61,301 bases of DNA from Opitutales bacterium (GTDB lineage Bacteria; Verrucomicrobiota; Verrucomicrobiia; Opitutales; JAJFLR01): NCBI GenBank assembly GCA_021772565.1, contig JAJFLR010000042.1:1-61301 (forward strand). The letters run 5' to 3'. Made by a program: the position numbers and the translations under genes. The notes under the pieces are model-generated. The model saw only the letters and a program-made list of their open reading frames with translations, was not told the DNA's origin and did no database searches. Below are positions 16,740 through 40,510 of the stretch, piece by piece (the stretch's first letter is position 1; every line of letters starts with the position of its first letter).

Positions 16740-17546
16740 ATGTCAAAAAAACAAAATACGAGCTCCGATGTAATTTCCAAATATAATTCTATATACGTAA
16801 TTATCTCCCCACCGCGCTGTGGATCAACTGCATTTGCTAGAGTATTTTGGCAACACCCTTCAATACGTTACTACTCTCATGAACCTTTTGAAATCACCTA
16901 CTATTCCGGTAAATCATTAGATGATGTTTATGAGAAACTTGAATCACCACTCGATTTAAAAAATATTGTAGCAGATAAAAATTCAGAAAATTGTGTTAAT
17001 TTAGTAATAAAAGACATAGTATATCAAGTTGGAGATAACCTAAGTAATTTAGTTTCATGGGCTAAAAAGCCCGTAATATTTCTTATTCGTGATCCACGTT
17101 TAAATATTTTATCTCGCATTGATAAAAAAATTGAGGTTGGGACCAGTCCATTTTTTCCGCTCATTGAAACTGGTTGGGAACTAGTCAATAATCAGATCAA
17201 TTACTGTAAGCAGAGCAATGTCCCGTACATTATAGTTGATTCAAGTGACTTCAGAAACCATTCACAAAATATTTTTAATCAGGTTTTTAATAAACTAGAG
17301 TTAAATTTTAGTGAAGAATTTCTAACGTGGCCAAATTGTCACACTGTAGAAATAGATAATCTTGATGGAGCACACACACATCTCTATAAAAAAGTTTTAA
17401 GCAGCACTGCTATCAAGCCAGCAATAGAGCCTATTCCAACACTTGATGATTTCCCAAAAGAACATGGATTTCGTCAACATGTTATCGAATGTCTTGAAAT
17501 ATATAAAAAATTAAGGCAGGATTCTCATAGAATATTACCCAAATAG
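16740..17546 (+). CDS. sulfotransferase-like P-loop protein
   Basis: A 268-residue protein with SPPRCGSTAFARVFWQHP near residue 27. This resembles the 5'-phosphosulfate-binding loop of PAPS-dependent sulfotransferases, where the start of the loop binds the PAPS 5'-phosphate. A second motif, VIFLIRDPRLNILSR (about residues 117-131), corresponds to the 3'-phosphate-binding segment (RDPR...S). It would transfer sulfate to a hydroxyl or amine of a small molecule. It is the first gene of the apparent diaminopropionate cluster, 71 bases before sbnA. A weak promoter (TTGTCA 16702, TGATAT 16725) would give a very short leader. The acceptor is unknown; a kinase-like P-loop role is a less likely alternative. 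Confidence 0.65.
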   Translation: MSKKQNTSSDVISKYNSIYVIISPPRCGSTAFARVFWQHPSIRYYSHEPFEITYYSGKSLDDVYEKLESPLDLKNIVADKNSENCVNLVIKDIVYQVGDNLSNLVSWAKKPVIFLIRDPRLNILSRIDKKIEVGTSPFFPLIETGWELVNNQINYCKQSNVPYIIVDSSDFRNHSQNIFNQVFNKLELNFSEEFLTWPNCHTVEIDNLDGAHTHLYKKVLSSTAIKPAIEPIPTLDDFPKEHGFRQHVIECLEIYKKLRQDSHRILPK

Positions 17547-17617
17547 TTATTGACTCATTACTTTATAAAAAGTAAATATTCTATAAAAACAGTTATTTAC
17601 CTCTTATAAAATTTACT

Positions 17618-18616
17618 ATGAAAATTGACGGTATATTATCATTAGTGGGCAACACACCAATGGTTAGGTTAAATCGTATATTTGATGACATTAAATTTGA
17701 ATTATATGCGAAATTAGAATTACTCAACCCAGCAGGCAGCATTAAAGATCGGCCTGCTCTAAAAATGATTCAGGCTGCTTTTGAAAATGGAGATATAAAT
17801 CCTAATACGACAATAATTGAATCTAGCTCCGGCAATATGGCTGTGGCACTCTCTCAAATTTGCACATATCTTGATTTAAAACTTATTTGTGTAGTTGACA
17901 TTGGGTCAACCGAAGCCAATCGCCAGATCATGCAAGGGTATGGTGCTAAAGTTGATTTGATCACAGAACCTCATCCTGAAGAAGGATTTTTAGGTGCTCG
18001 CTTAAGGCGTGTTCAGGAACTTCTCGAAACTATTCCAAATAGTTTTAATTGTGATCAATATAATAACGTCAACCATACTATTTCGCACCATTCAACTATC
18101 CAGGAAATAATTACTGATCTGGGAGTTGAGCCGGATTATTTATTTTGTGCTACCAGCACTTGTGGTTCTTTAAAAGGTTGTTCTAATTATATCGAAAAAC
18201 ATAAATTAAAAACTAAAATGATTGCTATTGATGCATTTGGAAGCGTTATTTTTGGTGACCAACCCAAACCAAGACGTATACCAGGTCATGGTGCATCAAT
18301 CATTCCACCATTTTATACTGATGGACTGGAACATGAACATATACTAATTTCTGATATGGAGGCAATAATTGGCTGCAAAAAATTAATGCGACGTGAAGGT
18401 ATTTTTGCCGGTGGATCTTCAGGAGCGATTATGTCTGGAATAGGAAAATATATTAGTGAAATTCCAGAAAACTCAAAATGTGTAGCTATCCTCTATGATA
18501 GAGGTGGGCGATACCATGATACAATTTATTCTGATAAATGGATAAAGGAAAATTTTAGTGACGAATATCATTTATTGGAAGAAGAGTTAACACCTTTACC
18601 AATTTTAGTTAACTAA
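17618..18616 (+). CDS. sbnA: SbnA-type O-phosphoserine-dependent synthase (diaminopropionate pathway)
   Basis: A 332-residue fold-type II PLP enzyme of the cysteine-synthase superfamily. The PLP lysine is K43 in NPAGSIKDRPA, and the phosphate-binding loop is SSSGNM. The region SVIFGDQP...IPGHGAS and the end ILYDRGGRYHD are close to SbnA of Staphylococcus aureus. By family knowledge SbnA joins O-phospho-L-serine and L-glutamate into N-(1-amino-1-carboxy-2-ethyl)-glutamate. The next gene is the SbnB partner, 37 bases downstream, which makes the assignment firm. Together they supply L-2,3-diaminopropionate, a building block of siderophores and peptide antibiotics, yet no NRPS or siderophore synthetase is in this window. 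Confidence 0.88.
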   Translation: MKIDGILSLVGNTPMVRLNRIFDDIKFELYAKLELLNPAGSIKDRPALKMIQAAFENGDINPNTTIIESSSGNMAVALSQICTYLDLKLICVVDIGSTEANRQIMQGYGAKVDLITEPHPEEGFLGARLRRVQELLETIPNSFNCDQYNNVNHTISHHSTIQEIITDLGVEPDYLFCATSTCGSLKGCSNYIEKHKLKTKMIAIDAFGSVIFGDQPKPRRIPGHGASIIPPFYTDGLEHEHILISDMEAIIGCKKLMRREGIFAGGSSGAIMSGIGKYISEIPENSKCVAILYDRGGRYHDTIYSDKWIKENFSDEYHLLEEELTPLPILVN

Positions 18617-18653
18617 TTTATAACGACTAACATTAGTCGATCCTGAAGTAGAG

Positions 18654-19688
18654 ATGAATAATCTGAAAAATAATATTTTACTACTGAAGGGCTCCGAAAT
18701 TGATCAACTGCTACTGAACCGAGAAAATGAAATTCTCGAAACTATCAAGCAAACATATCAAGCACATGCAAACGGCAATACCGTTATGCCTCCCAACGCC
18801 TATCTACGTTTTCCCAATATGGAAAAAGAACGTATTATTGCAAAACCAGCATATCTAGGAGAAAACTTTAATACTGCTGGAATAAAATGGATAGCTTCAT
18901 TTCCAAAAAATCTTGCATGTGGCATTGAACGGGCTTCAGCGACTTTGATACTCAACTCAGCTGAAAATGGTCATCCTACAGCCATCATGGAAAGTTCTAT
19001 TATTAGCGCAAAAAGAACTGCTTCCAGTGCCGCATTGGCAGCAAATTATATCTATCCCAATGAAAAAGTTACTCATATCGGTCTCGTAGGATGTGGTCTG
19101 ATTAATTTTGAAACTTTGCGCTTTCTAATATCTGTTTATCCGATGATTGAGACTGTTCACCTTGTTGATTTGAGTGAAGAGCGTGCTGAAATATTCAAGA
19201 ATAAATCGCTCAATTTGAATTCTAATCTAAACATTTATATTCATAAAGACTATAATAAGATAATCCCTCATGCTCAGATTATTGCATTTGGTACTACCGC
19301 AGTTCAACCGTTTGTAAATTCAGTAGAAGATCACTTACCCCATTCATTAATCCTACACACATCATTACGAGATTTAAAGTCAAACGTCATTATAAACGCA
19401 GATAATATTGTCGATGATATCGATCAGGTTTGTAGCAATCAAACATCTGTTCATTTAGCAGAACAGGAAATCGGTAGTAGAAAATTTATTCGTACAACGA
19501 TCGGTGACATATTAAATGAAAATGCAAAGCCATACGACAAAAATAAAAATCTTCATATATTTAGTCCATTTGGATTAGGAATTTTGGATATGGGACTCGC
19601 CCATTTAGTTGAACAGTTGGCACTTAAAAACAATATCGGAACAATTATCGAAGATTTTTTACCCGACTCATGGACAGAACGTAATTAA
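18654..19688 (+). CDS. sbnB: SbnB-type dehydrogenase, releases L-2,3-diaminopropionate
   Basis: A 344-residue member of the ornithine cyclodeaminase/mu-crystallin family. It shows GIKWIASFP near residue 76, MESSIISAKRTA, the Rossmann loop IGLVGCGLINFETLR and a C-terminal FSPFGLGILDMGLAH. Order and spacing match SbnB, which oxidatively hydrolyses the SbnA product with NAD+ to L-diaminopropionate, 2-oxoglutarate and ammonia. The gene is 37 bases after sbnA. It is separated by 132 bases from the next gene pair, which has its own conserved upstream sequence. Confidence 0.87.
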   Translation: MNNLKNNILLLKGSEIDQLLLNRENEILETIKQTYQAHANGNTVMPPNAYLRFPNMEKERIIAKPAYLGENFNTAGIKWIASFPKNLACGIERASATLILNSAENGHPTAIMESSIISAKRTASSAALAANYIYPNEKVTHIGLVGCGLINFETLRFLISVYPMIETVHLVDLSEERAEIFKNKSLNLNSNLNIYIHKDYNKIIPHAQIIAFGTTAVQPFVNSVEDHLPHSLILHTSLRDLKSNVIINADNIVDDIDQVCSNQTSVHLAEQEIGSRKFIRTTIGDILNENAKPYDKNKNLHIFSPFGLGILDMGLAHLVEQLALKNNIGTIIEDFLPDSWTERN

Positions 19689-19820
19689 TTTATTAAAGTC
19701 ATAGATTTATTTAGGGCTTTGATATTAGTGATTACAATGAATACACTGAGTGATATCTTGACTCACAACAGAAAGGCTATCAACTATTTGGATAAATATT
19801 TTATTTGAAAAATAAAATTC

Positions 19821-21086
19821 ATGCAAGAAAACATAGAATGCTTACGATGTCTCATATGCGGAAAAGAATACGCACCAGATGATGTACAGTATATTTGCCC
19901 TGATCACAATCTTGATGGAACGTTAGATGTAAATTATAATTACGATAACATTAAAAAAATATTTGACCTTCATACTCTTAAAAAAAACCTGGATTTTTCC
20001 ATGTGGCGATACAAGTCGTTAATGCCAATTACAGAAAACATAAGCCCTCCCCCTCTTCGCGTTGGATGGACACCCCTGTATCATTCCAATCATTTTGTAA
20101 ATAAATTTAATTTAAAAAACGTTTGGATAAAAGATGAAGGGCAACAACCAACCGGTTCACTGAAAGATAGAGCGAGCGCACTAGCTATTGTTAAAGCTCA
20201 AGAAGCAAAAGCAACTATTATTGCGACTGCCAGTACGGGAAACGCTGGTGCAGCTCTCAGCGGCCTGTCAGCCAGTGCCAATCAAAAAAATATTATCTTT
20301 CTTCCTGAATCCGCACCTCGAGCAAAAATTGCCCAGTTACAAGTTTATGGCTCAACAATCATTTTGGTTAATGGTTCATATGATGATGCCTTCAATTTAT
20401 GTAGAAGCGCCTGTGAACTATACGGCTGGTATAATCGCAATACCGGGTATAATCCATATATGTCTGAAGGTAAGAAAACTGTAGCCTATGAAATTTGTGA
20501 GCAATTAATCTGGAATGCCCCCGATCTAATAATTGTCAGTGTTGGAGATGGGTGTATCATTGGTGCAGTTCATAAAGGCTTAAAAGATTTACTCGCATTG
20601 GGCTGGATAAATAAAATGCCGCGTCTAGTTGGTGTTCAAGCTGCCGGCAGTAATTATCTCACTCAAGCTTGGGAGAATGATGAATATCTGCAAATCAAAC
20701 CTGCCATCAAAGCAAATACAATTGCGGACAGTATTTCAGCTGGTCTACCCCGAGATCGATTTAAGGCAATGAATGCAGTGACTCAATCTGACGGCGTTTT
20801 TGTAACAGTAACAGATGATGAAATACTTGCGGCAATTCCTGAACTAGCTAGCAATACGGGGGTGTTTGCTGAACCGGCGGGCGCTGCATCTCTTGCAGGA
20901 TTAAAAAAATGTTTAGAGAAAAATTTAATAAAGTCTGATGAAAATGTAGTTTTAATTAATACCGGAAATGGGTTAAAGGATATTAAGAGTTCTCAACAAG
21001 CTATCGATAAATTTAAATCAACTGCTCACCTTGTAAATCCAGATATTCAAGCTCTGAAAAGTATCGAAAAATTTTTTCCAATTTAA
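19821..21086 (+). CDS. threonine-synthase-like PLP enzyme, copy 1
   Basis: A 421-residue fold-type II PLP enzyme. The N-terminal zinc-ribbon-like segment has C10, C13, C26 and H29 (LRCLICGKEY ... YICPDH). Then come GWTPLY, the PLP lysine K115 in QQPTGSLKDRAS, the phosphate loop STGNAGAALSG, SVGDGCIIGAVHKGLKDL and AEPAGAASLAGL. The family includes threonine synthase (O-phosphohomoserine), archaeal cysteate synthase (O-phosphoserine plus sulfite) and diaminobutyrate-forming relatives. Linkage to sbnAB and to a racemase argues for a specialised role, possibly beta-replacement on an O-phospho amino acid, rather than threonine supply. The racemase gene follows after 15 bases. It shares an identical 117-bp tract with copy 2. 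Confidence 0.82.
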   Translation: MQENIECLRCLICGKEYAPDDVQYICPDHNLDGTLDVNYNYDNIKKIFDLHTLKKNLDFSMWRYKSLMPITENISPPPLRVGWTPLYHSNHFVNKFNLKNVWIKDEGQQPTGSLKDRASALAIVKAQEAKATIIATASTGNAGAALSGLSASANQKNIIFLPESAPRAKIAQLQVYGSTIILVNGSYDDAFNLCRSACELYGWYNRNTGYNPYMSEGKKTVAYEICEQLIWNAPDLIIVSVGDGCIIGAVHKGLKDLLALGWINKMPRLVGVQAAGSNYLTQAWENDEYLQIKPAIKANTIADSISAGLPRDRFKAMNAVTQSDGVFVTVTDDEILAAIPELASNTGVFAEPAGAASLAGLKKCLEKNLIKSDENVVLINTGNGLKDIKSSQQAIDKFKSTAHLVNPDIQALKSIEKFFPI

Positions 21087-21101
21087 TGTTTTTATTTAGC
21101 T

Positions 21102-22232
21102 ATGACATCGATTGATCAATATCTGGCTAAAGAAATATCCCTCAAGCATCTTGAACTACATTTGCTAAATTTACCTGAGAAGGAATCTTTTTTATCATCT
21201 GTAGGTAGAAGAAACTCAAAACAAATTCTTATTATTAAGTGGATTGATAAAGACAACAATAACGGCTATGGAGAATGTTCATGTCGCACAGATCCTTACT
21301 ATTCAGCTGAATTTGTTGATGCTTCTATTATTCTAATAAAAAATTTTGTGATGTCTGGGTTGAAGGAGCAATTTACTGTTAAAGCTGTTTTAAGTTATCT
21401 CAATAAAATTAGAGGATGGAACTTCACTAAAGCAGGAATTGAAGCAGCAATGCATGACCTGATCAAAAATCGAGACAACGAACATATTCTCGATTGCTGG
21501 AATAAAAGTAAATTGGAAACCGTTTCTGTCGGAGTATCTATTGGCATTCAAAAAAATAATGATGAATTAAAACGTATAGCAGAAACTGCAATTGATGATG
21601 GTTATAAACGTTTAAAATTTAAAGTTCATCCAAGTTATAAATTGAACTTGGACTACCTAAATCTTCTTTCCCATAAAACAAAAATAAGTTTTGACGCCAA
21701 CGGTTCATTTGAATCTGCGGACTTTGAATATTTAAAAGAGATTTCTCAATTTAACACACCTATAGAACAACCCTTTGCACTGCATCGAATTGACCTTGTT
21801 AAAAAAGCTAAAGAACAAATTGAAAATTTCAAAATTTGCTATGACGAAGAAGTCGAATGCCTGGGCGACCTGATGAAACTCAATCAACTAAAAATAATTG
21901 ATGAGCTCAATATCAAGCCAGGTAGAGCTGGAGGTATCTACAACAGTATAAAAATTGCAAATTACTGCTTTGAAAAACAAATCCCATGTTGGGTTGGCGG
22001 TATGTTTGAAACAGGCATCGGACGATCATTAAATTTGTCCTTTGCCGCACGACTACAGAATGAAACTATTCATGATTTGAGTCCACCAAGCTATTATTTT
22101 GAAGAAGACATTTTAATAAATCCAATCAATTTGATAGCGGGAACTATTGATTCCATGCAGATAGAAAATGTAATTATTGACGAAAAAAGATTAGAAAGAT
22201 TTACAGTCGAAAAGATTATTCTCAGTAAGTAG
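21102..22232 (+). CDS. enolase-superfamily enzyme, N-acylamino acid racemase/OSBS-like, copy 1
   Basis: A 376-residue muconate-lactonizing-type enolase-superfamily member. It has the capping domain (YGECSCRTDPYY; AGIEAAMHDL), then a barrel with the KxK pair K172/K174 in RLKFKV. Metal ligands are D198 (FDANGSF), E222 (IEQPF) and D248 (CYDEEVE), and the opposing base is K272 in NIKPGR. WVGGMFETGIGRSLN is typical of the o-succinylbenzoate synthase/N-succinylamino acid racemase branch. Two lysines facing each other allow 1,1-proton transfer, hence racemisation of an N-acyl amino acid or dipeptide. OSBS in menaquinone synthesis is an alternative, but no other men gene is near. All catalytic residues are kept here, unlike copy 2. 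Confidence 0.82.
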   Translation: MTSIDQYLAKEISLKHLELHLLNLPEKESFLSSVGRRNSKQILIIKWIDKDNNNGYGECSCRTDPYYSAEFVDASIILIKNFVMSGLKEQFTVKAVLSYLNKIRGWNFTKAGIEAAMHDLIKNRDNEHILDCWNKSKLETVSVGVSIGIQKNNDELKRIAETAIDDGYKRLKFKVHPSYKLNLDYLNLLSHKTKISFDANGSFESADFEYLKEISQFNTPIEQPFALHRIDLVKKAKEQIENFKICYDEEVECLGDLMKLNQLKIIDELNIKPGRAGGIYNSIKIANYCFEKQIPCWVGGMFETGIGRSLNLSFAARLQNETIHDLSPPSYYFEEDILINPINLIAGTIDSMQIENVIIDEKRLERFTVEKIILSK

Positions 22233-22375
22233 AATATATACGATTGTCGTTAAAGAAAAAATTAAACTAGATTGTATAAATTTATTTAACTTTATTTCTT
22301 GCCTAATGAGTAATCTGGTTATTATGAATATCAAGATATATTAAGTAATCTGAAAATACCTTTTCGCTACCTGCA

Positions 22376-25300
22376 ATGATTTATAAACAAAATATTGGAA
22401 GACCGATTTATAATCCCAATATACTGAAACTTATAGGTATTAGTTTATTGATGCTGTGTCTTTACAAGACAGGCCGGTCTCAGAATGATTTTCCCAAGGA
22501 TGATAATACACCGCTGCCAGAACTACACCTCCTTGAAAATGACAAGCTATTGAAAATGGCTGAGTCTATGATACAACATGCATATTATTCATATTTAGCA
22601 GAATTACGCGGTTATTCAAAAAGTGAAATTCATATTAAGCAGACAAATCAGCAAGCAAATTCTCTTAAATTACCAACCGCATTATCAATACCGGATGAAG
22701 CACTCCCTCTTGAAATAAAACGTAATCAATTGAATCAATCAAAAATATGGCTTGAGACAAATCAACAACAGTTAAAACTACTGGAAGCACAAAAGGTATA
22801 TTTAGAAAAGCACATTGCACAAATTACAACGACTCAGTTATCTGCCAATTTACTATTGAAAGCTTTTGACGACATAAAAGTTTTTCTGCTGGAAATAAAT
22901 CTCCGTTTAAGTGACAGAACTTTGATGGCGAATGAGGTACCTACTGCTTTGTATGAAGATAAGTTAGCAAGTATGAAACTAAACGTCTGGGATCAACCTG
23001 CGAGACTAACTCGAGATTTAGAAAAATACGAAAATATTATTAAAACAACTGTTGAACGAATCAGCAAAGTTCATAAAAACATCTTGGAAGCAACAACGAG
23101 TCTTACAGACGCAGAAGAAATATATAGCGAGGAACTCAAACGTCAAAATCTGAAGCAAGACTATATAATAAAACCACCTCAACAATTGTTGAGAGAGTTG
23201 GTGAAATCTCAAGAGGAATTGATTTGGTTAAATGGCACATTTAATCTTTCTTACCGTCGTTTTCACCGGTTGCAAAAGCAAAGCAACGATATCCGTGTGC
23301 AATTGGAGTCTCTTTCACCCCCTAAGTTTCAAGACTCTCAGTTGGATTCAACGAAAATTGAGGAGAGCATCAAGGCAACAATTACTCATGAAAAGAAACG
23401 TATTAAAAAATTAGGGGGACTAAAAGAAGTTTTAGTAAAAATGATTGATCAAGTAAAAAATTATCAGGCCGACGATATTGTGCTGAATGAACATTTATTC
23501 AGAATGCAGGTGTTGACCGGTGTAGTTGAAGAATTGACGAAAGAAGGAACTCTGCCAAAAAAAGATCTTCCGAAACTGACCTCATCCAAAACACTCACAG
23601 ACCGAATAAATACTAACGATAAAATTCGCGAAGACGTCCTTTTAATAATGAGTAAAACAGGGGAACAACTGTTAGACTTGGACCAACAAATAGACAACAC
23701 TTTGACCGCTCATAAAGATGCCGAAGATCGTTTATCAAAATTTCTAATGGAACAAATATTAGCGAAGCAAGCCCGGCAGTGGGACTCCGAGCTTAAGCAA
23801 CTCGAGCCATCGAATTTGATAAAACGATTTAAAGATAACGCGGATGCCATCAAACAAAATTCAGCGAAATTAGAAAAGTCCGAAAAAAGTTACCAACAGC
23901 TGCAATCAGACACCCAAAAGGCCGGGAAACAATTGCAAACGGTGAAAGACCCTTTATTACGTTCTATTCAACAAGAGTCTTCGGTAGAGTATAAAGCTAT
24001 CCTTGAAAAACTTTTTGAGGGTACAGATTTAAAACAACCTGAAAATCTCCAACCGGCCACAGCCCATCGCACCGATGAGAAGTCTTTGTCAATTGAGGAA
24101 ATAACTATCGATAATCGACAATATCAAAAAATAATTTCTACACAAATTCGTAACATTGAAGAACTGCAAAAGTATCGTCTCGAATTATTGGAGACAATGA
24201 AGGAATTGGAGAAAAAAACAAGCCACCTTGCCAAGGGTTCACAGCAAGCCGGCAAGTTATCTTTGCAGCATTATGCCATTGCTATAGAATTAAAAAAGCG
24301 TCTAGGCCAACAACAGCTGCAAAGTGACGAAATTCCGGATGGCATCACAGATGCCTTGCAAAAAGAACGAATTAGCAAGTTTGAGAATAAATCTATTAAA
24401 TTGTCGAATGAACAAAACAGCCTGGGTCAGCAAATTATAATTCTAAGTCAACCGGTAAAGACATTGCCGGAACAAAAACAAATCCTCGGTAATATTCTGG
24501 AAGCAATTGGTAAACGTTTGGATATACAGCAAGATTGGCGAAAATTAGTAATGCATCTGGAAGCAGGAAGACAGGCCTTATCAGAAATAGAAAAGAAAAC
24601 GCTTGAGCAAGATGCCCTTCGCTTAATGGAATCTGAAACAACCTGGCAGGAATCCATGCTTGGTTTCGTACCTTCTGATCGTGCTGAAAATCTTACTCAG
24701 CTCATGCAGTCCCTATACCAGGAATGGATTGAGTTAGAGGGTAATCAAAAAAATCTCCAGACACAAAAAGATAAACTGGAGCAGTTAATTCAGTCAGTAG
24801 GTGAGGAGGAAACGATCATTTCCCAACTCATGCCGTTATTACAGCAACAAGTCACCCAACTCACTGAAACTTACAACAAAGAATATACCGAAATTAAAAC
24901 TCGAATATTACACTTAAAAGCGTCGGAACAGCACAAAAATAAATCTGAAGCCATTGCACAACAACTCAACCGGCTTTTTACTCAATACCTGCAAATTGCA
25001 GCTACCCATCAATGGATACAACTCTTTGAATTACGACTATCTGCCGAAAGTCTTGGCGCAGTTCTTGATGACTACCAACAGCAATTGGGAGACTTTAATA
25101 TCAAAACCGCAACCATTGAACGGCGCTTTGACTTTTTAAAAGGACACACAAATAATAATTCAGCGAAATTACCCTCTGAAGAAACACCCAAATCCGACAT
25201 GCATAAAATCCGTTTTTCACAGGGAGAAATCGGTGTACTACGTGCAGAACGCAAGAAAATACTCAGTCAGGAAGTTATCTGGGTCTTGGGAAAAATCGGG

Positions 25301-26119
25301 ATTATTATCGTTAGTGCTTTGCTACTCGTAACTTTACTTAATTGGATCATTTCACGAATGTTGAAACGTGCGCATGAGAGGAATGCCACTGCGCATAATA
25401 TATTTGCGTTGTCCTTTATGAATGCCTTTTTAAAATTCACTATATGGGTTATCGCTATCATTATCTTATTTAGTGTGCTGGGGTTTCATGTAGGAACGAT
25501 TATGGCCGGTCTGGGTATTGGCGGTTTAGCAGTTGCTATGGCTGCCAGAGAGACACTGGCAAATATTCTGGGAGGATTTTTACTTTTCTTTGAATCTCCT
25601 TTCTCGATTGGAGATGTCATAAAAATCGGGTCTAACACTGCAAAAGTTACCGGCTTAACATGGCGAACCACACGGCTGATAACCGGTTTTGGCTATTCTT
25701 ACAGTATTCCCAACTGTCAAGTCACTGAGGCAACGATCAAAAATTATACCCACACAACGCCCCCCGGAGATTTCTTTCTCGTTTATGTTTCTGCCAAATA
25801 TGATCCCCAAATTGTGATTCCCGTGATAAATCAGGCCCTCGCAGAGTGTAGTACCGTTTTGCAAGATGAGCCTAAAGGAACCTGGGTAGCAGAGGAAAGC
25901 ATGCTGGGAAATATGACCGTTATGGCTTACTGGCCTTGGTGGTCACTGCAAGACTATCACAAACGTAACGGCGTACGAAATGAAGTATGGCAGATGATTT
26001 GGAAGCACCTAAACAAGGCGGGTATTGGGATGGAGATTAAACCATTTAATCAGGATGCTCCATTAACCATGGAAATGAAAACCCTACCTGTTGAAATTGA
26101 AAAACGAATTTCAAGTTAG
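22376..26119 (+). CDS. giant MscS-family mechanosensitive channel (MscK/MscM-like)
   Basis: A 1247-residue protein. A signal-like hydrophobic segment (about residues 17-35) precedes roughly 900 residues of Gln/Glu/Lys-rich helix and coiled coil that should be periplasmic. The C-terminal part has two hydrophobic helices (IIIVSALLLVTLLNW; FTIWVIAIIILFSVLG) and the pore-lining helix GLGIGGLAVAMAARETLANI. The MscS beta-domain follows (ESPFSIGDVIKIG; TTRLITGFGYSYSIPN). It would open under membrane tension to release solutes on osmotic downshock. It lies 143 bases after the racemase on the same strand. Only three C-terminal membrane helices are clear, fewer than in E. coli MscK. Confidence 0.88.
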   Translation: MIYKQNIGRPIYNPNILKLIGISLLMLCLYKTGRSQNDFPKDDNTPLPELHLLENDKLLKMAESMIQHAYYSYLAELRGYSKSEIHIKQTNQQANSLKLPTALSIPDEALPLEIKRNQLNQSKIWLETNQQQLKLLEAQKVYLEKHIAQITTTQLSANLLLKAFDDIKVFLLEINLRLSDRTLMANEVPTALYEDKLASMKLNVWDQPARLTRDLEKYENIIKTTVERISKVHKNILEATTSLTDAEEIYSEELKRQNLKQDYIIKPPQQLLRELVKSQEELIWLNGTFNLSYRRFHRLQKQSNDIRVQLESLSPPKFQDSQLDSTKIEESIKATITHEKKRIKKLGGLKEVLVKMIDQVKNYQADDIVLNEHLFRMQVLTGVVEELTKEGTLPKKDLPKLTSSKTLTDRINTNDKIREDVLLIMSKTGEQLLDLDQQIDNTLTAHKDAEDRLSKFLMEQILAKQARQWDSELKQLEPSNLIKRFKDNADAIKQNSAKLEKSEKSYQQLQSDTQKAGKQLQTVKDPLLRSIQQESSVEYKAILEKLFEGTDLKQPENLQPATAHRTDEKSLSIEEITIDNRQYQKIISTQIRNIEELQKYRLELLETMKELEKKTSHLAKGSQQAGKLSLQHYAIAIELKKRLGQQQLQSDEIPDGITDALQKERISKFENKSIKLSNEQNSLGQQIIILSQPVKTLPEQKQILGNILEAIGKRLDIQQDWRKLVMHLEAGRQALSEIEKKTLEQDALRLMESETTWQESMLGFVPSDRAENLTQLMQSLYQEWIELEGNQKNLQTQKDKLEQLIQSVGEEETIISQLMPLLQQQVTQLTETYNKEYTEIKTRILHLKASEQHKNKSEAIAQQLNRLFTQYLQIAATHQWIQLFELRLSAESLGAVLDDYQQQLGDFNIKTATIERRFDFLKGHTNNNSAKLPSEETPKSDMHKIRFSQGEIGVLRAERKKILSQEVIWVLGKIGIIIVSALLLVTLLNWIISRMLKRAHERNATAHNIFALSFMNAFLKFTIWVIAIIILFSVLGFHVGTIMAGLGIGGLAVAMAARETLANILGGFLLFFESPFSIGDVIKIGSNTAKVTGLTWRTTRLITGFGYSYSIPNCQVTEATIKNYTHTTPPGDFFLVYVSAKYDPQIVIPVINQALAECSTVLQDEPKGTWVAEESMLGNMTVMAYWPWWSLQDYHKRNGVRNEVWQMIWKHLNKAGIGMEIKPFNQDAPLTMEMKTLPVEIEKRISS

Positions 26120-26139
26120 TATTCAAATAAAATGTCAGA

Positions 26140-26343
26140 TTCTATTATATCAGAACACCTAAATAAAACATAAATGCTGACTTGCTTGTTGTTGAGAAAA
26201 ATAAAGACATGAAGCACACTAAAGAACTTGCGGAAAAACATGGTTATTTTGATATTTAATCAGTATGATAATCCACAAACCTACTATCTCAGTTTAGCCC
26301 CTGAAATATGGCAGCAAACCGAGCATAAAATCAAAGTAAACTA
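26140..26343 (+). pseudogene. frameshifted gene remnant of unknown family
   Basis: Two overlapping frames look like one protein split by a frameshift. The first reads NADLLVVEKNKDMKHTKELA then EKHGYFDI before TAA. The second continues FNQYDNPQTYYLSLAPEI then WQQTEHKIKVN to TAA at 26341-26343, just before the methyltransferase start. Amino-acid composition is protein-like in each half, but neither half has a good start and I do not recognise the family. Confidence 0.35.
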
Positions 26344-26347
26344 ATCA

Positions 26348-27025
26348 ATGTATAAAATTAGCACAATCAAAGCTGATAGACAAGGTGATGAAATTTTTAA
26401 TCTGGAACTTGCCGATGGCACCACCAAAGAATTACATATATGGGATTATAAAATATTGTATAGCTACCCAAACCTTTATCAAAGTTTAATTATCGATTAC
26501 CTGGATTGCCGGGTTTATGAAGCAATCGGTGATTTGTTAAACTCAGTTATTGAAAAAGGTGCGACATTAAGAATATTAGATATTGCTTGCGGTAGTGGAC
26601 TAATGGGAAAACGATTAAGAGAAAACCATCAGTTTACAGTAGATTATCTTGCCGGTATTGAAATTCTACCCGAAGCCTTGACAGCATTAGAGCGTGATAC
26701 TCCAAATATTTATGATAGATGTTTTTTATCGGAACAAGATGATTTATCTCAGCTAAAAACCAAAAATATAAATTGTATGATCATATGCGGAGCAGCCAGT
26801 CATATGACATTAGAAAATTATAAAAGTTATCTCAGTTTATTATCGGAGGAGACCTTTATTGCCTTTAATTTGATTGGCGACCCTTTGCAGCAACATCGCA
26901 GAGAGATTTTGCAGTGGATGAATGAAAATTATCAACTCCTTAAAAATAAACCCTATCGGCATAGAAAATTAATGAATGGAAGTTATATTCACCATGAAGT
27001 ATTTGTTTATTGTCAGAAAATATAA
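26348..27025 (+). CDS. class I SAM-dependent methyltransferase
   Basis: A 225-residue protein with the Rossmann motif I ILDIACGSGLMGKRL (about residues 76-90), motif II-like LAGIEILPEAL, and a following MIICGAASHM. The layout is that of small-molecule methyltransferases and TPR-methyltransferase relatives. The substrate cannot be assigned. It starts five bases after the preceding remnant and ends five bases before the third racemase scrap, so its surroundings have been rearranged. Confidence 0.8.
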   Translation: MYKISTIKADRQGDEIFNLELADGTTKELHIWDYKILYSYPNLYQSLIIDYLDCRVYEAIGDLLNSVIEKGATLRILDIACGSGLMGKRLRENHQFTVDYLAGIEILPEALTALERDTPNIYDRCFLSEQDDLSQLKTKNINCMIICGAASHMTLENYKSYLSLLSEETFIAFNLIGDPLQQHRREILQWMNENYQLLKNKPYRHRKLMNGSYIHHEVFVYCQKI

Positions 27026-27030
27026 ATTCG

Positions 27031-27162
27031 GTAGAAAAGGCCAAAGACCAATTTGCAAATTGCAAAATCTGCTATGACGAAGGAATCGAAGGTCTCGGTG
27101 ACTTCATGAAACTTAAGCGACTAAAAATAATTGATGAGCTCAATATAAAACCGGGCCGAGTC
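27031..27162 (+). pseudogene. third, short remnant of the racemase gene
   Basis: About 130 bases align with the middle of the two racemase genes. They read VEKAKDQFANCKICYDEGIE then GLGDFMKLKRLKIIDELNIK and PGRV before a stop. The match corresponds to residues around 233-276 of copy 1. A fainter echo of the later HDLSPP region may lie near 27284-27300. It shows that the racemase unit was present a third time, or was moved through this position. Confidence 0.75.
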
Positions 27163-27467
27163 TGATGTATGTTCAGAACTCAGTAATTTGAACGTTATAC
27201 TTATTTAAGAGTCCACGCTAAACGAGGCTACGAATCGATAAAATCAATGGAGTATTGGAAGAATATACTGGACGGTTAGTGCATGATTGCCTGAGTTCAT
27301 ACTTTATTTTTATTTGACAAATAATTTTTCAATTAATCATAATTACCTTATGACAAAATCATGGAAAATGATTTCAAATATAAGTGTTAGTAGGATGGAA
27401 AAATTTTCCATTTATTAATGTTGTCAACTAACCTAATTTATACTGACCTTCACAATATGAAATCATT
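27163..27467. other. spacer upstream of the cysteine dioxygenase gene
   Basis: No gene is seen. A possible promoter consists of TTGACA near 27316 and CATAAT 18 bases further. The stretch before it may be further decayed racemase sequence. Confidence 0.35.
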
Positions 27468-27998
27468 ATGACAATAAAAATTGATACCCTAGTCACAGAA
27501 CTCATAGAAGCGTCCGAGGTTAGTCCGGACATTACAATTGAGTGCTTTAAGAGTTACACTTTTGATTTTAAAAGCATTGAAAAATATGGCTCTTGGTTGC
27601 CGAAAGATTATACTAGAAACCTAATACATCGAACAAATAAATTTGAACTGATTCTTCTTTGCTGGGACGGCAATGCCAATACGCTTCCCCATGACCATAA
27701 TGGTCATTTTTGCGCCATGCACATCATAGCAGGAAAATTAACAGAAAGAATTATCCCGGGAAAGGGAAATTGCCGTGTACCAGGGAAGAATCATACCTAT
27801 AATGAAGGAGATTTTAGTTTAATAGATCATAGCGATCGAATACATTCCATTTGCAATCTGAGCGAAGAACGTGCTGTTTCTCTACATCTATACATGCCTC
27901 CAATAGACGTCTGTAGTATTTATCAGGATAATGGACAAAAATTAAAAACCAAGAAACTAAGTTACACCACAAAAAGGAATTACAAAAATTATGAATAG
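27468..27998 (+). CDS. cysteine dioxygenase-type thiol dioxygenase
   Basis: A 176-residue cupin iron enzyme that oxidises a thiol, typically cysteine, to its sulfinate. The three iron ligands are H75 and H77 in PHDHNGHFC and H126 in RIHSI. The substrate-clamping YTRNL (Y48, R50) and H140 in SLHLYMPP are kept. Both partners of the Cys-Tyr crosslink known from mammalian CDO are in the right places (C82 and Y142). Many bacterial CDOs lack that Cys, so this is a complete, animal-like set. The stop overlaps the next start by eight bases, which couples it to the methyltransferase. Confidence 0.9.
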   Translation: MTIKIDTLVTELIEASEVSPDITIECFKSYTFDFKSIEKYGSWLPKDYTRNLIHRTNKFELILLCWDGNANTLPHDHNGHFCAMHIIAGKLTERIIPGKGNCRVPGKNHTYNEGDFSLIDHSDRIHSICNLSEERAVSLHLYMPPIDVCSIYQDNGQKLKTKKLSYTTKRNYKNYE

Positions 27999-28674
27999 TA
28001 CCCAAGTAGAATATTCTAAATATCTCTTTTATCCCTATCTTGTTAGGCTTAAAGATGAAACATCATCATGGAAACCGACACCGCACGGTATAGCGCTAGC
28101 CAATGCAATGACTTCAATTGCTTCAGAATTTCAGGGAAAATCGGTTCTTGAGATTGGAGCGGGATCCGGTATCCATGCCATATTGGCTAATAAATTTGGT
28201 TGTCAATATATAGACATAACTGAAATTGAGTCTACATTCCTGGATGCGGCAAGCGAAAACGCAAAATTAAATAATTGTAGTTTTCGAAATGCTATGATTC
28301 AGGATTGGACCGACTTTACCCCAACTCAGTCTTATGATATTCTAATTTGTAATCCTCCTTTCTGTAAAGCAGGCACAAAGGATCGTAGATGGTTCATTCA
28401 ACAATTAATCAAAGACGGGAAAAAGTTTCTAAGTTCTTCAGGTTTCTTTATCTTCTGTCAAAGCAGTATGGCTGATTTCAAACTCACTGAATCAGAGATC
28501 AAGTGTGCTGATTCTTCGTTTGATGTCATATTAGAGCATAAAGGACTTTTTCGTGACTACTACTTTACCGAACCTGGGTTTATGGAAGAAAGCAATGCAG
28601 TCACCAATGGCTTTGAAATGATAGATGATGCTTACGTTGAAACACTTAGAGCATACCGTGTTCGGCCGAATTAA
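27991..28674 (+). CDS. SAM-dependent methyltransferase with NPPF motif
   Basis: A 227-residue class I methyltransferase. Motif I is VLEIGAGSGIHAILA, and the ICNPPF motif (about residues 119-124) is characteristic of enzymes that methylate an amide or ring nitrogen, as in the HemK/RsmC-like group. It overlaps the cysteine dioxygenase gene (ATGAATAG), implying joint translation. Its target could be a protein glutamine, RNA, or a small molecule made by the cluster. Confidence 0.82.
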   Translation: MNSTQVEYSKYLFYPYLVRLKDETSSWKPTPHGIALANAMTSIASEFQGKSVLEIGAGSGIHAILANKFGCQYIDITEIESTFLDAASENAKLNNCSFRNAMIQDWTDFTPTQSYDILICNPPFCKAGTKDRRWFIQQLIKDGKKFLSSSGFFIFCQSSMADFKLTESEIKCADSSFDVILEHKGLFRDYYFTEPGFMEESNAVTNGFEMIDDAYVETLRAYRVRPN

Positions 28675-28710
28675 TGTAAATATTCAGTGAACCCCGACCC
28701 TCAACAAAAT

Positions 28711-28748
28711 TTTTAAAAAGCCCTCAAGTGTTTATTTTCTGAGGGCTT
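28711..28748 (-). terminator. intrinsic terminator of the LamG PEP-CTERM gene
   Basis: On the minus strand AAGCCCTCA pairs with TGAGGGCTT, and the hairpin continues into TTTTT. It is 25 bases beyond the stop of the minus-strand gene. It lacks a T-run on the plus strand, so it acts mainly for the PEP-CTERM gene, though its stem may also shield the methyltransferase transcript end. Confidence 0.8.
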
Positions 28749-28772
28749 AAAAAAAATTTATATCTATTCTAA

Positions 28773-29507
28773 TTATCTGTGCGCTCTTTTATAATAAATA
28801 GAAAATAGTAATACTATGCTACCAAATGCAAAAGCATAAGTTGATGGTTCCGGGACGAGAGTTCCAACTTCACTTAATGATAATGCTGAATCAAAAAGTT
28901 GTACTTCATCAATTATTCCATGAAATGGATTTGCTCCGGACGAATCTGCACCGATTCTCAATGTGTTGCTATTAGCAAAATTTGCAATGCTTGCAGCTGC
29001 AGTAGCTTCTTGTACTCCGTTGAGATAAAGAGTTATATTCGTTCCATCAAATGTTCCGGCAACGTGGCTGTTAACTCCTGAAGGTATAGTAGTTGTACCA
29101 GTTATTAATGTGGAACCAACAATCATTCTCAGTTTTCCACCTACGATATCCAAAAGGTATCCATTAGTTCCACCTGCAGTTATTTTATCCAGCAGACGAT
29201 TGGACGTTGGAGATGACGCAGGGTTTATCCACATGGCAATTGATACACCTGTTGCAGAAGTCAGATCAAGCGTGTTATCGTCCGCTACTTCAATATAGTC
29301 ACCATCTCCATCAAGACTAAATGCCTGCCCGACAATACCTGTTACAAATGTCGTATCTCCAACTAATGTTCCATTGTTACCTCCCACACTATCAAGTGCA
29401 TTTCCATTGCCACTCCACAGAGAGATAGCAGCAGAATAAGCACTATGGGCTCCAATTAGTGATAACATTAGTATAGTGATTGTAGTTCTCGTTTTTGATA
29501 TTTTCAT
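28773..29507 (-). CDS. LamG-domain PEP-CTERM surface protein
   Basis: A 244-residue exported protein. It has a signal peptide (residues 1-25, cleavage near AYSA-A) and a concanavalin A-like LamG fold (about 28-210) with typical strands GQAFSLDGDGDYIEV, VSIAMWINP, HVAGTFDGTNITLYLNG and HGIIDEVQLFD. The C-terminal sorting signal is VPEPSTYAF, then a hydrophobic helix and the basic end YYKRAHR. It is probably processed by an exosortase and displayed outside, possibly binding glycans. It forms a single-gene unit with its own terminator. Confidence 0.92.
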   Translation of the reverse strand: MKISKTRTTITILMLSLIGAHSAYSAAISLWSGNGNALDSVGGNNGTLVGDTTFVTGIVGQAFSLDGDGDYIEVADDNTLDLTSATGVSIAMWINPASSPTSNRLLDKITAGGTNGYLLDIVGGKLRMIVGSTLITGTTTIPSGVNSHVAGTFDGTNITLYLNGVQEATAAASIANFANSNTLRIGADSSGANPFHGIIDEVQLFDSALSLSEVGTLVPEPSTYAFAFGSIVLLFSIYYKRAHR

Positions 29508-29737
29508 AATATTATATTAATAGCTTTTAGTTAAATTTAAACGTGTCATATTCTTATGTTTTTTTTAAAATTTATTGTGTAAATATTATGTAAGTCAATA
29601 AAAAGAATTATTTGTGAATAACTTTATAGCTTTCGCAAAGATCGCCAAGATTTTTTTATTTATTTCTATGGGACAGCACATGACATAAATACCAATAAAT
29701 AAAAAAATTAAGAAAAATTCGTTCCATAAATTAAAGC

Positions 29738-30178
29738 CTAACTTAATTTCTCCAAATCAGCTAAATCCTGATGTCTACCGGAAGCCCGCTTGTTTTTCTT
29801 TAAATTTTCAATGTTAATGAAATTGATTTTTAGTCCTTCAATATCAGCCACTAACTTAGATTGAAAACATTCCAGAAAATTAACTCCATCAATTGAAGTC
29901 AAAAGATCAATTCGGTTAGGTGGATTACCTAATTGAATAATATATTCAGGCAATAAAAAATCATCGGGAATCAGACCTAAAGATGCAAAACCAAAATCTT
30001 TAAGCACTTGTACAATACATTCTGCATTTTTCTTATCAATCAAAATCCAAATATCAATATCCTTAGTATAACGAGGATGACCATGAAATGCTAACGCATA
30101 TCCTCCAACAATCAGATACATAACATCATTTTTGTTTAATAACTCTATAAACTCTCTGAAATCCTTGTTGAGTATCAT
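29738..30178 (-). CDS. minimal nucleotidyltransferase (MNT/DUF6036-like)
   Basis: A 146-residue protein with the nucleotidyltransferase signature YLIVGGYALAFHGHPRYTKD followed by IDIWI. The GG and the D-x-D carboxylates are characteristic of the polymerase-beta-like fold. Small stand-alone members often act as antitoxins or AMPylating partners. It overlaps the upstream 64-codon gene by 53 bases in another frame, a strong sign of a two-gene module. Confidence 0.8.
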   Translation of the reverse strand: MILNKDFREFIELLNKNDVMYLIVGGYALAFHGHPRYTKDIDIWILIDKKNAECIVQVLKDFGFASLGLIPDDFLLPEYIIQLGNPPNRIDLLTSIDGVNFLECFQSKLVADIEGLKINFINIENLKKNKRASGRHQDLADLEKLS

Positions 30179-30320
30179 TTTTCCAAATTCCGTATTCCGT
30201 TCTTATACTTTCCAACTGTGCCAGACGCAAGTGATAGGGTTGAGTTTGCCAATAGCTGAAGTCATTGCTTTTTTGACCAAGCTTAATTTTTTTTACTACT
30301 GTTTTGTCTAATTTGTTCAA
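30126..30320 (-). CDS. small partner protein of the nucleotidyltransferase
   Basis: A 64-residue basic protein (NKLDKTVVKKIKLGQKSNDF, SYWQTQPYHLRLAQLESIR, GFQRVYRVIKQ). The pattern 'DF.YW...Q...RL..LE.IR' is familiar from short genes placed directly before MNT/DUF6036-type nucleotidyltransferases. The 53-base overlap implies coupled translation. The biochemical role is unknown; a toxin-antitoxin-like pair is the leading idea. Confidence 0.6.
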   Translation of the reverse strand: MNKLDKTVVKKIKLGQKSNDFSYWQTQPYHLRLAQLESIRTEYGIWKNDTQQGFQRVYRVIKQK

Positions 30321-30563
30321 TTTAATTCCAATAGATATAAGCTAGATGGTTTAAACTTTAGCAACGATAGTCAAGATATTGCTGAGAGAAAAAACAATCG
30401 CATTTCTATGGCAATACCAGACTTAGCACATACGAGAACTGATTTGTGAAACACATAAATTTATTCTGGATTCTAACTCCTGAATACTGAATTCTCTAAA
30501 ATTCCCCAGTGATATCTTGACTCACAACTGAAAGGGCATGAACTATTCGGATCAGTTACTTTT

Positions 30564-31829
30564 ATGAATAAATTTTTTAATAGCCTTCGCTGCCTTATCT
30601 GCGGCAAAGAATATTCGCCTGATAAAGCACAATACATTTGTCCCGACCACAATCATGATGGAACGTTAGATGTAAACTATAATTACGATATTATTAAAAA
30701 AAAGATTGAACGAAAATCCCTGGAAAAAAATCCTGATTGTTCGATGTGGCGATATAAACCGTTATTGCCAATAGATGCTGCTTTAAACTTGTCCCTGTTA
30801 CGCGTTGGATGGACACCACTCTATAATTCAATTCGATTATCGGATAAATTAAATTTAAAAAGTGTTTGGATAAAAAACGAGGGACAGCAGCCGACCGGTT
30901 CGCTTAAAGACCGAGCCAGTGCACTAGCTATTTATAAAGCTCATGAAATAAAGGCAAACGTTATTGCTACTGCCAGTACCGGAAACGCCGGAGCAGCACT
31001 GAGTGGATTATGTGCCAGTGCAAATCAAAAAAATATTATCTTTCTACCTAAATCTGCACCCGCAGCAAAAATTGCCCAGTTACAAGTTTATGGCTCAACA
31101 ATCATTTTGGTTAATGGTTCATATGATGATGCCTTCAATTTATGTAGAAGCGCCTGTGAACTATACGGCTGGTATAATCGTAATACCGGATACAATCCCT
31201 ATATGACAGAAGGTAAAAAAACTGTCGCTCATGAAATTTGTGAGCAATTAAATTGGAATGTTCCTGACATTATTATAGTTAGTGTTGGCGATGGGTGTAT
31301 CATTGGTGCAGTACACAAAGGATTGAAGGATTTGCTCGCATTAGGCTGGATAAATAAGATGCCCCGTTTAATCGGAGTTCAAGCAGCCGGTAGTAATTAC
31401 CTCTCCCAAGCATGGGAGAATGATGAAGATCTACAAACAAAACCACCGATAAAAGCGAACACGATAGCCGACAGCATATCCGCCGGATTGCCGCGAGATC
31501 GCTTTAAAGCGATGAATGCTGTCAAGAATACTAACGGAATATTTGTAACTGTAACTGACGAAGAGATTTTATCGGCCATACCCGAATTGGCTAGGAACAG
31601 CGGGGTCTTTGCAGAACCTGCAGGCGCGGCTTCCTTTGCCGGATTAAAAAAATGTGTAGAAAAGAATATAATAACCTCCGACGAAAGTGTAGTCATAATA
31701 AATACCGGTAACGGCTTAAAGGATATTAAGAGCACTCAACAAGCAATCGATAAAATTAAATCAAACGCTCATAAAATATATCCCGATATCCGAGAGCTGA
31801 AAAACCTTGAAAAATTTTTGCCAAATTAA
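30564..31829 (+). CDS. threonine-synthase-like PLP enzyme, copy 2
   Basis: 421 residues, the same length as copy 1 and collinear with it. C10, C13, C26 and H29 of the zinc-ribbon-like start, the lysine in QQPTGSLKDRAS, STGNAGAALSG and AEPAGAASFAGL are all conserved. Differences are spread over the N-terminal 150 residues and the C-terminus, whereas a 39-codon block (31074-31190) is identical in DNA to copy 1. It seems functional although its racemase partner is broken. Keeping both copies intact suggests dosage or slightly different substrates. Confidence 0.82.
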   Translation: MNKFFNSLRCLICGKEYSPDKAQYICPDHNHDGTLDVNYNYDIIKKKIERKSLEKNPDCSMWRYKPLLPIDAALNLSLLRVGWTPLYNSIRLSDKLNLKSVWIKNEGQQPTGSLKDRASALAIYKAHEIKANVIATASTGNAGAALSGLCASANQKNIIFLPKSAPAAKIAQLQVYGSTIILVNGSYDDAFNLCRSACELYGWYNRNTGYNPYMTEGKKTVAHEICEQLNWNVPDIIIVSVGDGCIIGAVHKGLKDLLALGWINKMPRLIGVQAAGSNYLSQAWENDEDLQTKPPIKANTIADSISAGLPRDRFKAMNAVKNTNGIFVTVTDEEILSAIPELARNSGVFAEPAGAASFAGLKKCVEKNIITSDESVVIINTGNGLKDIKSTQQAIDKIKSNAHKIYPDIRELKNLEKFLPN

Positions 31830-31831
31830 CT

Positions 31832-32784
31832 ATGGCATCGATTGATCAATATCTGGCTAAAGAAATATCCCTCAAGCATCTTGAACTCCATTTGCTAAAT
31901 TTACCCGAGAAAGAATCATTTATTTCATCTCTGGGTAAAAGAAGTTCAAAACAAATTCTTATTATTAAGTGGATTGATAAAGACAACAATAACGGTTATG
32001 GAGAATGTTCATGCCGCACAGATCCTTACTATTCAGCCGAATTTGTTGATGCTTCCATTATTCTAATAAATTAGACGAAGTTTCTGTCGGAATATCTATT
32101 GGCATTCAAAAAAATAATGATGAATTGAAACAAATCGTAGAAACTGCCATTGATGATGGCTATAAACGTTTAAAATTTAAAGTTCATCCAAGCTATAAGT
32201 TGGACTTGGAATATCTATATCTTCTTTCACATAAAACCAAAATTAGTTTGGACGCAAATGGTTCTTTTGAATTTGAGGACTTTGAATATTTAAAAGAACT
32301 TTCTCAATTTAACACTGCCATAGAACAACCCTTTGCACTGCATCGAATTGATCTGGTAGAAAATGCCAAAGAACAAATTGAAAACTTCAAAATTTGCTAT
32401 GACGAAGAAGTCGAATGCCTCGGCGACTTGATGAAACTCGATCGACTAAAAATAATTGATGAGCTAAATATCAAACCGGGTAGAGTTGGTGGTATCTACA
32501 ACAGTATAAAAATAGCAGATTATTGTTTTGAAAAACAAATCCCCTGTTGGGTTGGCGGCATGTTTGAAACCGGCATTGGTCGGTCATTAAATCTATCTTT
32601 TGCATCACGACTATCTGGAAAAGCCATTCATGACCTGAGTCCACCATTGCGTTATTTCCAAGAAGATATTTTAAAAATTCCAATTTCTATGACTGATGGA
32701 TTCATTGATTCAAGTCATCTAGAAAATTCAAATGTAGACAGTGAACAATTAAATAAATATATAATCAATAATTTGAGTTATTAA
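31832..32784 (+). pseudogene. racemase/OSBS-like enolase-superfamily gene, copy 2, broken by a 172-bp deletion
   Basis: The first 80 codons (to VDASIILIN, stop TAG at 32072-32074) match copy 1. The next bases jump to the equivalent of codon ~138 (EVSVGISIG in a shifted frame), and the rest matches to the end of the barrel. Comparison with copy 1 shows TAAA at both deletion ends (21337-21340 and 21509-21512), so 172 bp were lost by microhomology. This removes part of the capping domain including AGIEAAMHDL and shifts the frame. The barrel half keeps its catalytic lysines and carboxylates and could restart at 32125 (219 codons), but without the cap it should be inactive. Confidence 0.9.
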
Positions 32785-37072: not shown

Positions 37073-37076
37073 TTAA

Positions 37077-39125: not shown

Positions 39126-39144
39126 TATATTCAAAAATCTTTTA

Positions 39145-40323: not shown

Positions 40324-40430
40324 ATATCACGTATTCAATAGATAAAACTTTCCAACCCAAAAAATAGGTTCTCGTATCAGTGACCATAATCATAACCATC
40401 ACCAAAATTGATTGAAAATTATTAAAAAAT

Positions 40431-40510
40431 TGTAGGGCCTTCGCTTGCGAAGCGCCTCTTCGAGCATGCCATGTCCTCTTACGAGGCATCGAGCAAGCTC
40501 GAGCCCTACA
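40431..40510. repeat. 80-bp palindromic element with TGTAGGGC/GCCCTACA ends
   Basis: The element begins TGTAGGGCC and ends GCCCTACA (8-bp terminal inverted repeats). It contains two internal hairpins, CTTCGCTTGCGAAG and CGAGCAAGCTCG. Its left 27-28 bases recur in inverse orientation at 61219-61246. It sits in the 292-base gap between the ATPase and permease genes, which in most MacB operons is absent, so it looks like an insertion into the operon. Confidence 0.75.

Follow-up and report, generated by a model that had tools for sequence, protein, structure and literature searches.

Genome organization

The window is an entire contig of 61,301 nucleotides (nt) from an Opitutales bacterium (JAJFLR010000042.1, assembly GCA_021772565.1), whose genome assembly comprises 3.57 Mb in 124 contigs and is 95% complete. 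Positions 16740-22232 hold five same-strand genes in the order sulfotransferase-like gene (SULT), sbnA, sbnB, ThrL and MenC, separated by 71, 37, 132 and 15 nt, which form a single operon-like run. ThrL denotes here a threonine-synthase-like pyridoxal phosphate (PLP) enzyme, and MenC an enolase resembling o-succinylbenzoate synthase and N-succinylamino acid racemase (OSBS/NSAR). SbnA and SbnB are predicted to make 2,3-diaminopropionate (Dap), and the presence of Dap genes together with ThrL suggests an uncharted small-molecule route. A second, incomplete ThrL-MenC unit lies further along the contig. The features of the run and its repeat are as follows.

16740-17546, + strand: sulfotransferase-like gene, first in the run, 71 nt 5' of sbnA (Pfam Sulfotransfer_5)
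17618-18616, + strand: sbnA, PLP enzyme condensing O-phosphoserine and glutamate (TIGR03945; nearest PDB entry 5d84)
18654-19688, + strand: sbnB, oxidative Dap release (TIGR03944; nearest PDB entry 4m54)
19749-19812, + strand: ThrL1 leader, copied ahead of ThrL2 at 30508-30571 (repeat D6, 80% identity)
19821-21086, + strand: ThrL1, threonine-synthase-like PLP enzyme, proposed to process Dap (TIGR00260; family contexts; separate ThrC in the genome)
21102-22232, + strand: MenC1, OSBS/NSAR-like enolase, intact copy (TIGR01928; catalytic columns)
~27022-27175, + strand: third, short MenC fragment with a stop at its end (repeat D3; translation)
30564-31829, + strand: ThrL2, intact second copy (80% amino acid identity, dN/dS 0.096)
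31832-32784, + strand: MenC2, deletion pseudogene (172 nt lost, broken frame)

Neither the GC content nor the third-position GC content (GC3) of the run is an outlier against its neighbors, and a recent horizontal island, as judged by composition, was rejected on this basis.

Dap synthesis genes

Synthesis of L-Dap by SbnA and SbnB is the firmest step of the predicted route and is well supported by family cut-offs, residues and gene order, in agreement with the preliminary description of this locus, which had proposed that the pair makes Dap from O-phosphoserine and glutamate. SbnA scores 392.1 bits against TIGR03945 and SbnB 373.4 bits against TIGR03944 (curated NCBIfam cut-offs 349.95 and 326.9), and the two genes are adjacent with a 37-nt gap. 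The closest solved structures are Staphylococcus aureus SbnA 5d84 (254 bits) and, for SbnB, 4m54. In S. aureus SbnA, Lys47 carries the PLP, and O-phosphoserine binding is assigned to Arg132, Tyr152 and Ser185 (PMC12414870). Alignment places Lys, Arg, Tyr and Ser at these columns in the window SbnA. By analogy, SbnA would condense O-phosphoserine with glutamate, and SbnB would split the SbnA product oxidatively into L-Dap and 2-oxoglutarate.

The same two adjacent families provide Dap in the staphyloferrin B cluster of S. aureus, with the key SbnA residues kept here. The run described here differs from that cluster in having no synthetase, decarboxylase or exporter, and in that ThrL and MenC come after sbnAB. 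No NRPS-independent siderophore (NIS) synthetase or nonribosomal peptide synthetase (NRPS) was found among the window proteins scanned or read by eye, the other contigs not having been searched.

Identity of ThrL

ThrL1 scores 200.6 bits against the threonine synthase model TIGR00260 (cut-off 167.1); against NF006050 (cut-off 303), ThrL2 passes at 314.9 bits and ThrL1 misses at 301.3. Threonine synthase (ThrC) is the nearest relative among both family models and solved structures, and the AlphaFold model of ThrL has a predicted local distance difference test (pLDDT) score of 88. ThrL differs from ThrC in three respects. The arginine of the NP(Y/H)R(L/I)EG motif, as seen in three aligned threonine synthases and presumably a phosphate-binding residue in that enzyme, is replaced by methionine in all 54 ThrL rows of the alignment. 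The genome encodes a canonical ThrC on another contig, C75 (270 bits against TIGR00260; Thr_synth_N). Finally, the gene context of ThrL is not that of threonine synthesis. A role for ThrL in threonine synthesis was therefore rejected on the grounds of the separate ThrC and the Arg-to-Met change.

ThrL relatives in purine-type cassettes

A scan with the ThrL alignment against one genome per species (84,980 species) gave 421 relatives, of which the best 80 loci were used. These share 55-62% identity with ThrL and come mostly from Chloroflexota and Desulfobacterota, by record title. Several of the 80 loci are only 4-6 kb long, and absence of a gene beside them is weak evidence. Counts of YgeW, YgeY and carbamate kinase cover all 80 loci, and a single-open reading frame (ORF) reading covered 70 (10 dropped).

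A YgeW-like carbamoyltransferase was found in 48 of the 80 loci and a YgeY-like peptidase in 29, at bit thresholds of 80 and 120 that may admit other carbamoyltransferases and peptidases; carbamate kinase was found in 54, and at least one of the three lies beside ThrL in 63. A second PLP protein accompanies ThrL in 69/80 loci. SsnA-like (14/80), XdhD-like (11/80) and HyuA-like (3/80) genes are less frequent. The one cassette YgeY-like protein scanned scored 468 bits (cut-off 321.5). In the reductive uric acid pathway, removal of ureido groups by YgeW and YgeY gives Dap, which YgeX, the Dap ammonia-lyase, converts to pyruvate and ammonia (PMC12507026, PMC12990295); the Escherichia coli genes are ygeW-ygeX-ygeY-hyuA-yqeA-ygfK-ssnA-xdhD (PMC12507026). 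ThrL relatives occur with YgeW-, YgeY- and YqeA-like genes, with Dap as the common intermediate, whereas the window has no match for YgeW, YgeY or carbamate kinase, YgeY was not found in the genome, and Dap would be made de novo.

YgeX was found in none of the 80 ThrL loci, where the weak YgeX matches are ThrL itself. ThrL is only distantly related to YgeX, and the sole match to the YgeX model TIGR03528 (cut-off 532) in the Opitutales genome is ThrL2, at 43.6 bits. Among the genomes of 25 ThrL loci, chosen for long contigs, YgeX is above the cut-off in six, slightly below it in one (508 vs 532) and absent from 18; these are mostly metagenome-assembled genomes, in which a gene may be missing because the assembly is incomplete. 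The cassettes of the 80 loci, which lack YgeX, are likely a variant of the reductive purine pathway. ThrL therefore has the appearance of an enzyme linked to Dap, and it may take the place of YgeX in many, not all, cassette genomes. The tie to Dap is drawn from two unrelated contexts, SbnAB here and purine-type cassettes elsewhere, and the latter give independent support to the earlier suggestion that the PLP enzyme would take Dap, or an amino acid related to it, as substrate.

More distant relatives show a similar, incomplete pattern. Three of four haloarchaeal plasmid relatives viewed (annotated 'thrC', 41% identity) lie among purine or ureide genes, the exception being that of Salinigranum; a Chlorohelix relative (35%) is not among purine genes. 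Within the same class, ThrL relatives at E ≤ 1e-90 occur in 3 of 383 other genomes (43-44% identity), two near an 8-oxoguanine-deaminase-like gene (one scanned, 588 bits) and one near YgeY (463 bits) and an XdhD-like gene. The main text of PMC12507026 contains no occurrence of 'threonine synthase' or 'Chloroflexi'. Searches of an open-access library, judged by titles and abstract openings, for a threonine-synthase-like purine-pathway member and for SbnAB in this phylum brought up no account of the combination.

Divergence of the window ThrL copies

A phylogenetic tree was built from an alignment with 52 of the 80 loci, one locus (L089) being excluded for an internal stop. Both window copies form one well-supported lineage with a long stem at the base of the cassette clade. 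The tree is compatible with a position just outside that clade or as the earliest branch within it, and the tree program flags long branches. Of the 209 columns that at least 90% of the 52 cassette rows conserve, ThrL1 differs at 24 and ThrL2 at 20, with the same change in both at 16 of these columns. For the cassette rows themselves, the median number of deviating columns is 6 and the maximum 20, so that ThrL2 is no more divergent than the most divergent row. Changes common to both copies flank the PLP lysine (D106E, R108Q, A112G, F114L) and occur at the Asn loop (T135A, A143G). ThrL1 and ThrL2 have EGQQPTGSLKDRAS in place of the DDGR-P-(T/S)-(A/G)-(S/C)-FKDRAS of the purine-linked relatives examined. 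The specificity of ThrL may have changed in the window copies.

Duplication and the MenC copies

ThrL and MenC were duplicated as a unit that includes 64 nt or more of leader. ThrL2 is 80% identical to ThrL1 in amino acid sequence, with a synonymous divergence (dS) of 1.21 and a nonsynonymous to synonymous ratio (dN/dS) of 0.096; the ThrL duplication is old, and both copies are constrained by purifying selection. MenC2 consists of an N-terminal part (31832 to ~32070, 93% nt identity) and a C-terminal part (~32067-32784), with 172 nt missing between them and the frame broken; a TTG start at 32125 falls inside this gene. The repeat, described earlier as a duplicated PLP enzyme-racemase pair, is therefore one working ThrL-MenC pair plus a lone second ThrL: ThrL2 is intact, but MenC2 is a deletion pseudogene, and a third MenC scrap lies at ~27.03 kb. 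Between the MenC copies (21096-22232 vs 31826-32784), dS is 0.24 in the N-terminal and 0.53 in the C-terminal part, lower than the 1.21 of the adjacent ThrL, which suggests gene conversion between them. Promoter-like sites number 80 over the whole stretch, near the shuffle mean of 66.8 (standard deviation 7.8), and a separate ThrL-MenC promoter is not concluded.

MenC1 scores 213.4 bits against TIGR01928 (cut-off 200.65) and aligns with OSBS/NSAR enolases (1wue, 1wuf and 1sja). It keeps the Lys-x-Lys, Asp, Glu, Asp and Lys columns, which we take to be catalytic in those enzymes, and the Lys-x-x-Arg stretch. Its plasmid matches share no more than ~33% identity with it. Epimerization by a racemase, as proposed in the preliminary description, is possible, since MenC is an enolase of this type and retains the catalytic columns. 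It is, however, also the sole OSBS candidate found in a genome that encodes MenD (470 bits, cut-off 244) and MenB (444 bits, cut-off 343). Genome searches with PF13378 and TIGR01927 returned the window copies, one enolase identified by eye and one 10-bit match, with no OSBS candidate other than the window copies. Contig C13 ends ~300 nt past MenD, and no menC was recognized by eye beside menD before that end. MenC matches at E ≤ 1e-20 occur in 14 other genomes of 288 in the phylum, none of them in the same order. Enolase-superfamily counts for 70 genomes of the order lack the specificity needed to tell which enzyme makes o-succinylbenzoate in relatives.

Conservation of the gene combination

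Co-conservation in relatives, the check named in the preliminary description, was not observed. SbnB, MenC, the sulfotransferase and the dioxygenase (described below) have no match in the 80 ThrL loci at E ≤ 1e-5. SbnA matches in 11 of these loci, ten of which are ThrL itself and one a separate PLP gene (L052, 29%, 99 bits). Within the order, SbnA at E ≤ 1e-80 is found in one of 103 genomes, namely this one. Plasmid match lists were viewed in part: four plasmid SbnA neighborhoods of 38 records contain, respectively, a polyketide synthase (PKS), an ATP-grasp protein with an aminotransferase, an NRPS, and IucA/IucC, and ThrL and MenC are absent from these four. One of the four, on a Streptomyces plasmid, carries a further PLP gene (L159, 8101-8976) beside sbnB-sbnA and NRPS genes, which is not ThrL by tblastn.

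Proposed route and alternatives

We tentatively propose, with somewhat less than even confidence, that the run makes Dap, that ThrL turns Dap into another beta-substituted alanine, and that MenC acts on the product. ThrL may form an external aldimine with Dap or with a closely related N-acyl or N-carbamoyl compound; it would then expel the beta-nitrogen to form a PLP-aminoacrylate, to which another nucleophile would be added. Replacement is preferred to elimination because a lyase would burn the Dap just made and because the motif beside the PLP lysine is changed in both copies. MenC, as a 1,1-proton-transfer enolase, might at a stretch set the stereochemistry of an N-acylated product; no N-acyltransferase or deacylase partner was seen in the run. 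The product would be a small amino acid in free form, not one assembled by an NRPS or NIS synthetase.

Several observations weigh against this proposal. Threonine synthases are nearest to the ThrL model, with the Dap ammonia-lyase 4d9m only at rank 42. Within the locus, the duplication took in ThrL-MenC but not SbnAB, SbnB and ThrL are 132 nt apart, and MenC1 may be the menaquinone OSBS, a serious rival to epimerization. The combination of SbnAB, ThrL and MenC is found in this genome only. As for the purine-type cassettes, the one carbamoyltransferase scanned scores higher with ornithine carbamoyltransferase models (254 bits) than with YgeW (198), the second PLP protein could equally be the Dap enzyme there, and a YgeX-type lyase is present in 7 of the 25 cassette genomes, so ThrL is not simply a YgeX replacement.

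The genes could instead be unrelated neighbors, with SbnAB-derived Dap used elsewhere, MenC serving as menaquinone OSBS and ThrL as an independent deaminase-type enzyme. We regard this as rather unlikely, although it would account for MenD and MenB in a genome with no other OSBS candidate found, for the duplication of ThrL-MenC apart from SbnAB and for the lack of co-conservation. MenC, however, lies 15 nt past ThrL and was copied along with it, none of the other MenC-matching genomes is of the same order, and, with C13 ending near MenD in a 95% complete assembly, a native menC could be absent from the assembly or have diverged beyond the reach of the models. As in ordinary SbnAB clusters, Dap might be used by an assembly line, whether the adjacent type I PKS (33653-39167) or a synthase encoded at another locus, but this seems improbable. 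The contents of the four plasmid neighborhoods viewed fit this alternative, as do the PKS and exporter genes 0.9 kb away and a 4032-amino acid (aa) PKS-like ORF noted by eye on contig C69, but the adjacent PKS is on the other strand, contains no NRPS domain and is tied to Dap by nothing. The earlier description of the cluster as lacking an assembly line holds within the interval but not 0.9 kb beyond it, where the type I PKS begins.

Simple Dap turnover, with ThrL as a Dap ammonia-lyase yielding pyruvate and ammonia and the run as a nitrogen or detoxification module, is quite improbable in our estimation. The occurrence of ThrL relatives in Dap-type purine cassettes, with YgeX in 0/80 loci and missing from 18/25 genomes, argues for it; yet building Dap from O-phosphoserine only to deaminate it would be futile, the genome lacks YgeY, the arginine that the purine-linked relatives have in DDGR is absent from both ThrL copies, and YgeX-type lyases are present anyway in seven of the 25 cassette genomes.

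Under a bolder extension of the proposed conversion of Dap, which we consider improbable, ThrL would represent an unrecognized family of PLP enzymes that process Dap. Together with a second PLP protein, it would complete the reductive purine pathway in YgeX-less bacteria and archaea. In this lineage it would have undergone duplication and active-site retuning and been combined with de novo synthesis of Dap and an epimerase of the enolase type, the outcome being a new beta-substituted, possibly D-, alanine. Family models say 'threonine synthase' for ThrL, while its gene neighborhoods, across several phyla and also among haloarchaea, indicate purine breakdown via Dap. This raises the question of which enzyme removes Dap in YgeX-less purine degraders. 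With the same enzyme joined here to Dap synthesis, the locus would encode either a route to a new free amino acid or a Dap lyase.

Neighboring genes

Further genes between and beyond the two ThrL-MenC units are listed below. Three of these (the mechanosensitive-channel, LamG/PEP-CTERM-like and nucleotidyltransferase genes) did not appear in the preliminary description.

22376-26119: mechanosensitive-channel protein, 1247 aa
26348-27025, + strand: ORF previously labelled methyltransferase (proximity only)
27468-27998, + strand: cysteine dioxygenase (PF05995; proximity only)
27991-28674, + strand: methyltransferase, overlapping the dioxygenase gene (PF05175; proximity only)
28773-29507: LamG/PEP-CTERM-like ORF (by eye)
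29738-30178: DUF6036 nucleotidyltransferase
33653-39167, - strand: type I PKS, two genes (KS, KR, ACP and DH above Pfam cut-offs, AT slightly below)

Most gene identities assigned earlier stood, namely SbnA, SbnB, ThrL, MenC, the dioxygenase (78.4 bits against PF05995, cut-off 23), one methyltransferase (27991-28674; 52.1 bits against PF05175, cut-off 23) and, marginally, the sulfotransferase-like protein (23.3 bits against Sulfotransfer_5, cut-off 23.2), but ORF 26348-27025 has no Pfam or NCBIfam match at E ≤ 0.001. The sulfotransferase-like protein has no believable PDB relative and no plasmid match. The mechanosensitive-channel gene stands between the five-gene run and the dioxygenase-methyltransferase pair. 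The dioxygenase, the methyltransferase, ORF 26348-27025 and the sulfotransferase are tied to Dap by proximity only, as are sulfation and methylation as tailoring steps. Methylation of Dap is one published hypothesis for the origin of beta-N-methylamino-L-alanine (BMAA) (PMC9414260). BMAA was not adopted as the product, nothing joining the methyltransferases here to Dap. In the alignment, the cysteine dioxygenase has Cys at the column of mammalian Cys93, where bacterial cysteine dioxygenases usually have Gly.

The PKS genes (AT-ACP-KR-DH at 33653-37072 and KS at 37077-39167) lie on the opposite strand and start 0.9 kb beyond the interval; neither protein has an NRPS domain. Positions 33653-42107 hold these genes followed by ABC-exporter genes, comprising a MacB-like permease, an ATPase and a short outer-membrane efflux ORF. 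On contig C69, the 4032-aa PKS-like ORF is followed by a 385-aa sulfotransferase-like ORF, both recognized by eye. A small REP/IS200-type transposase-like ORF was likewise seen by eye at 42500-42952 of the window.

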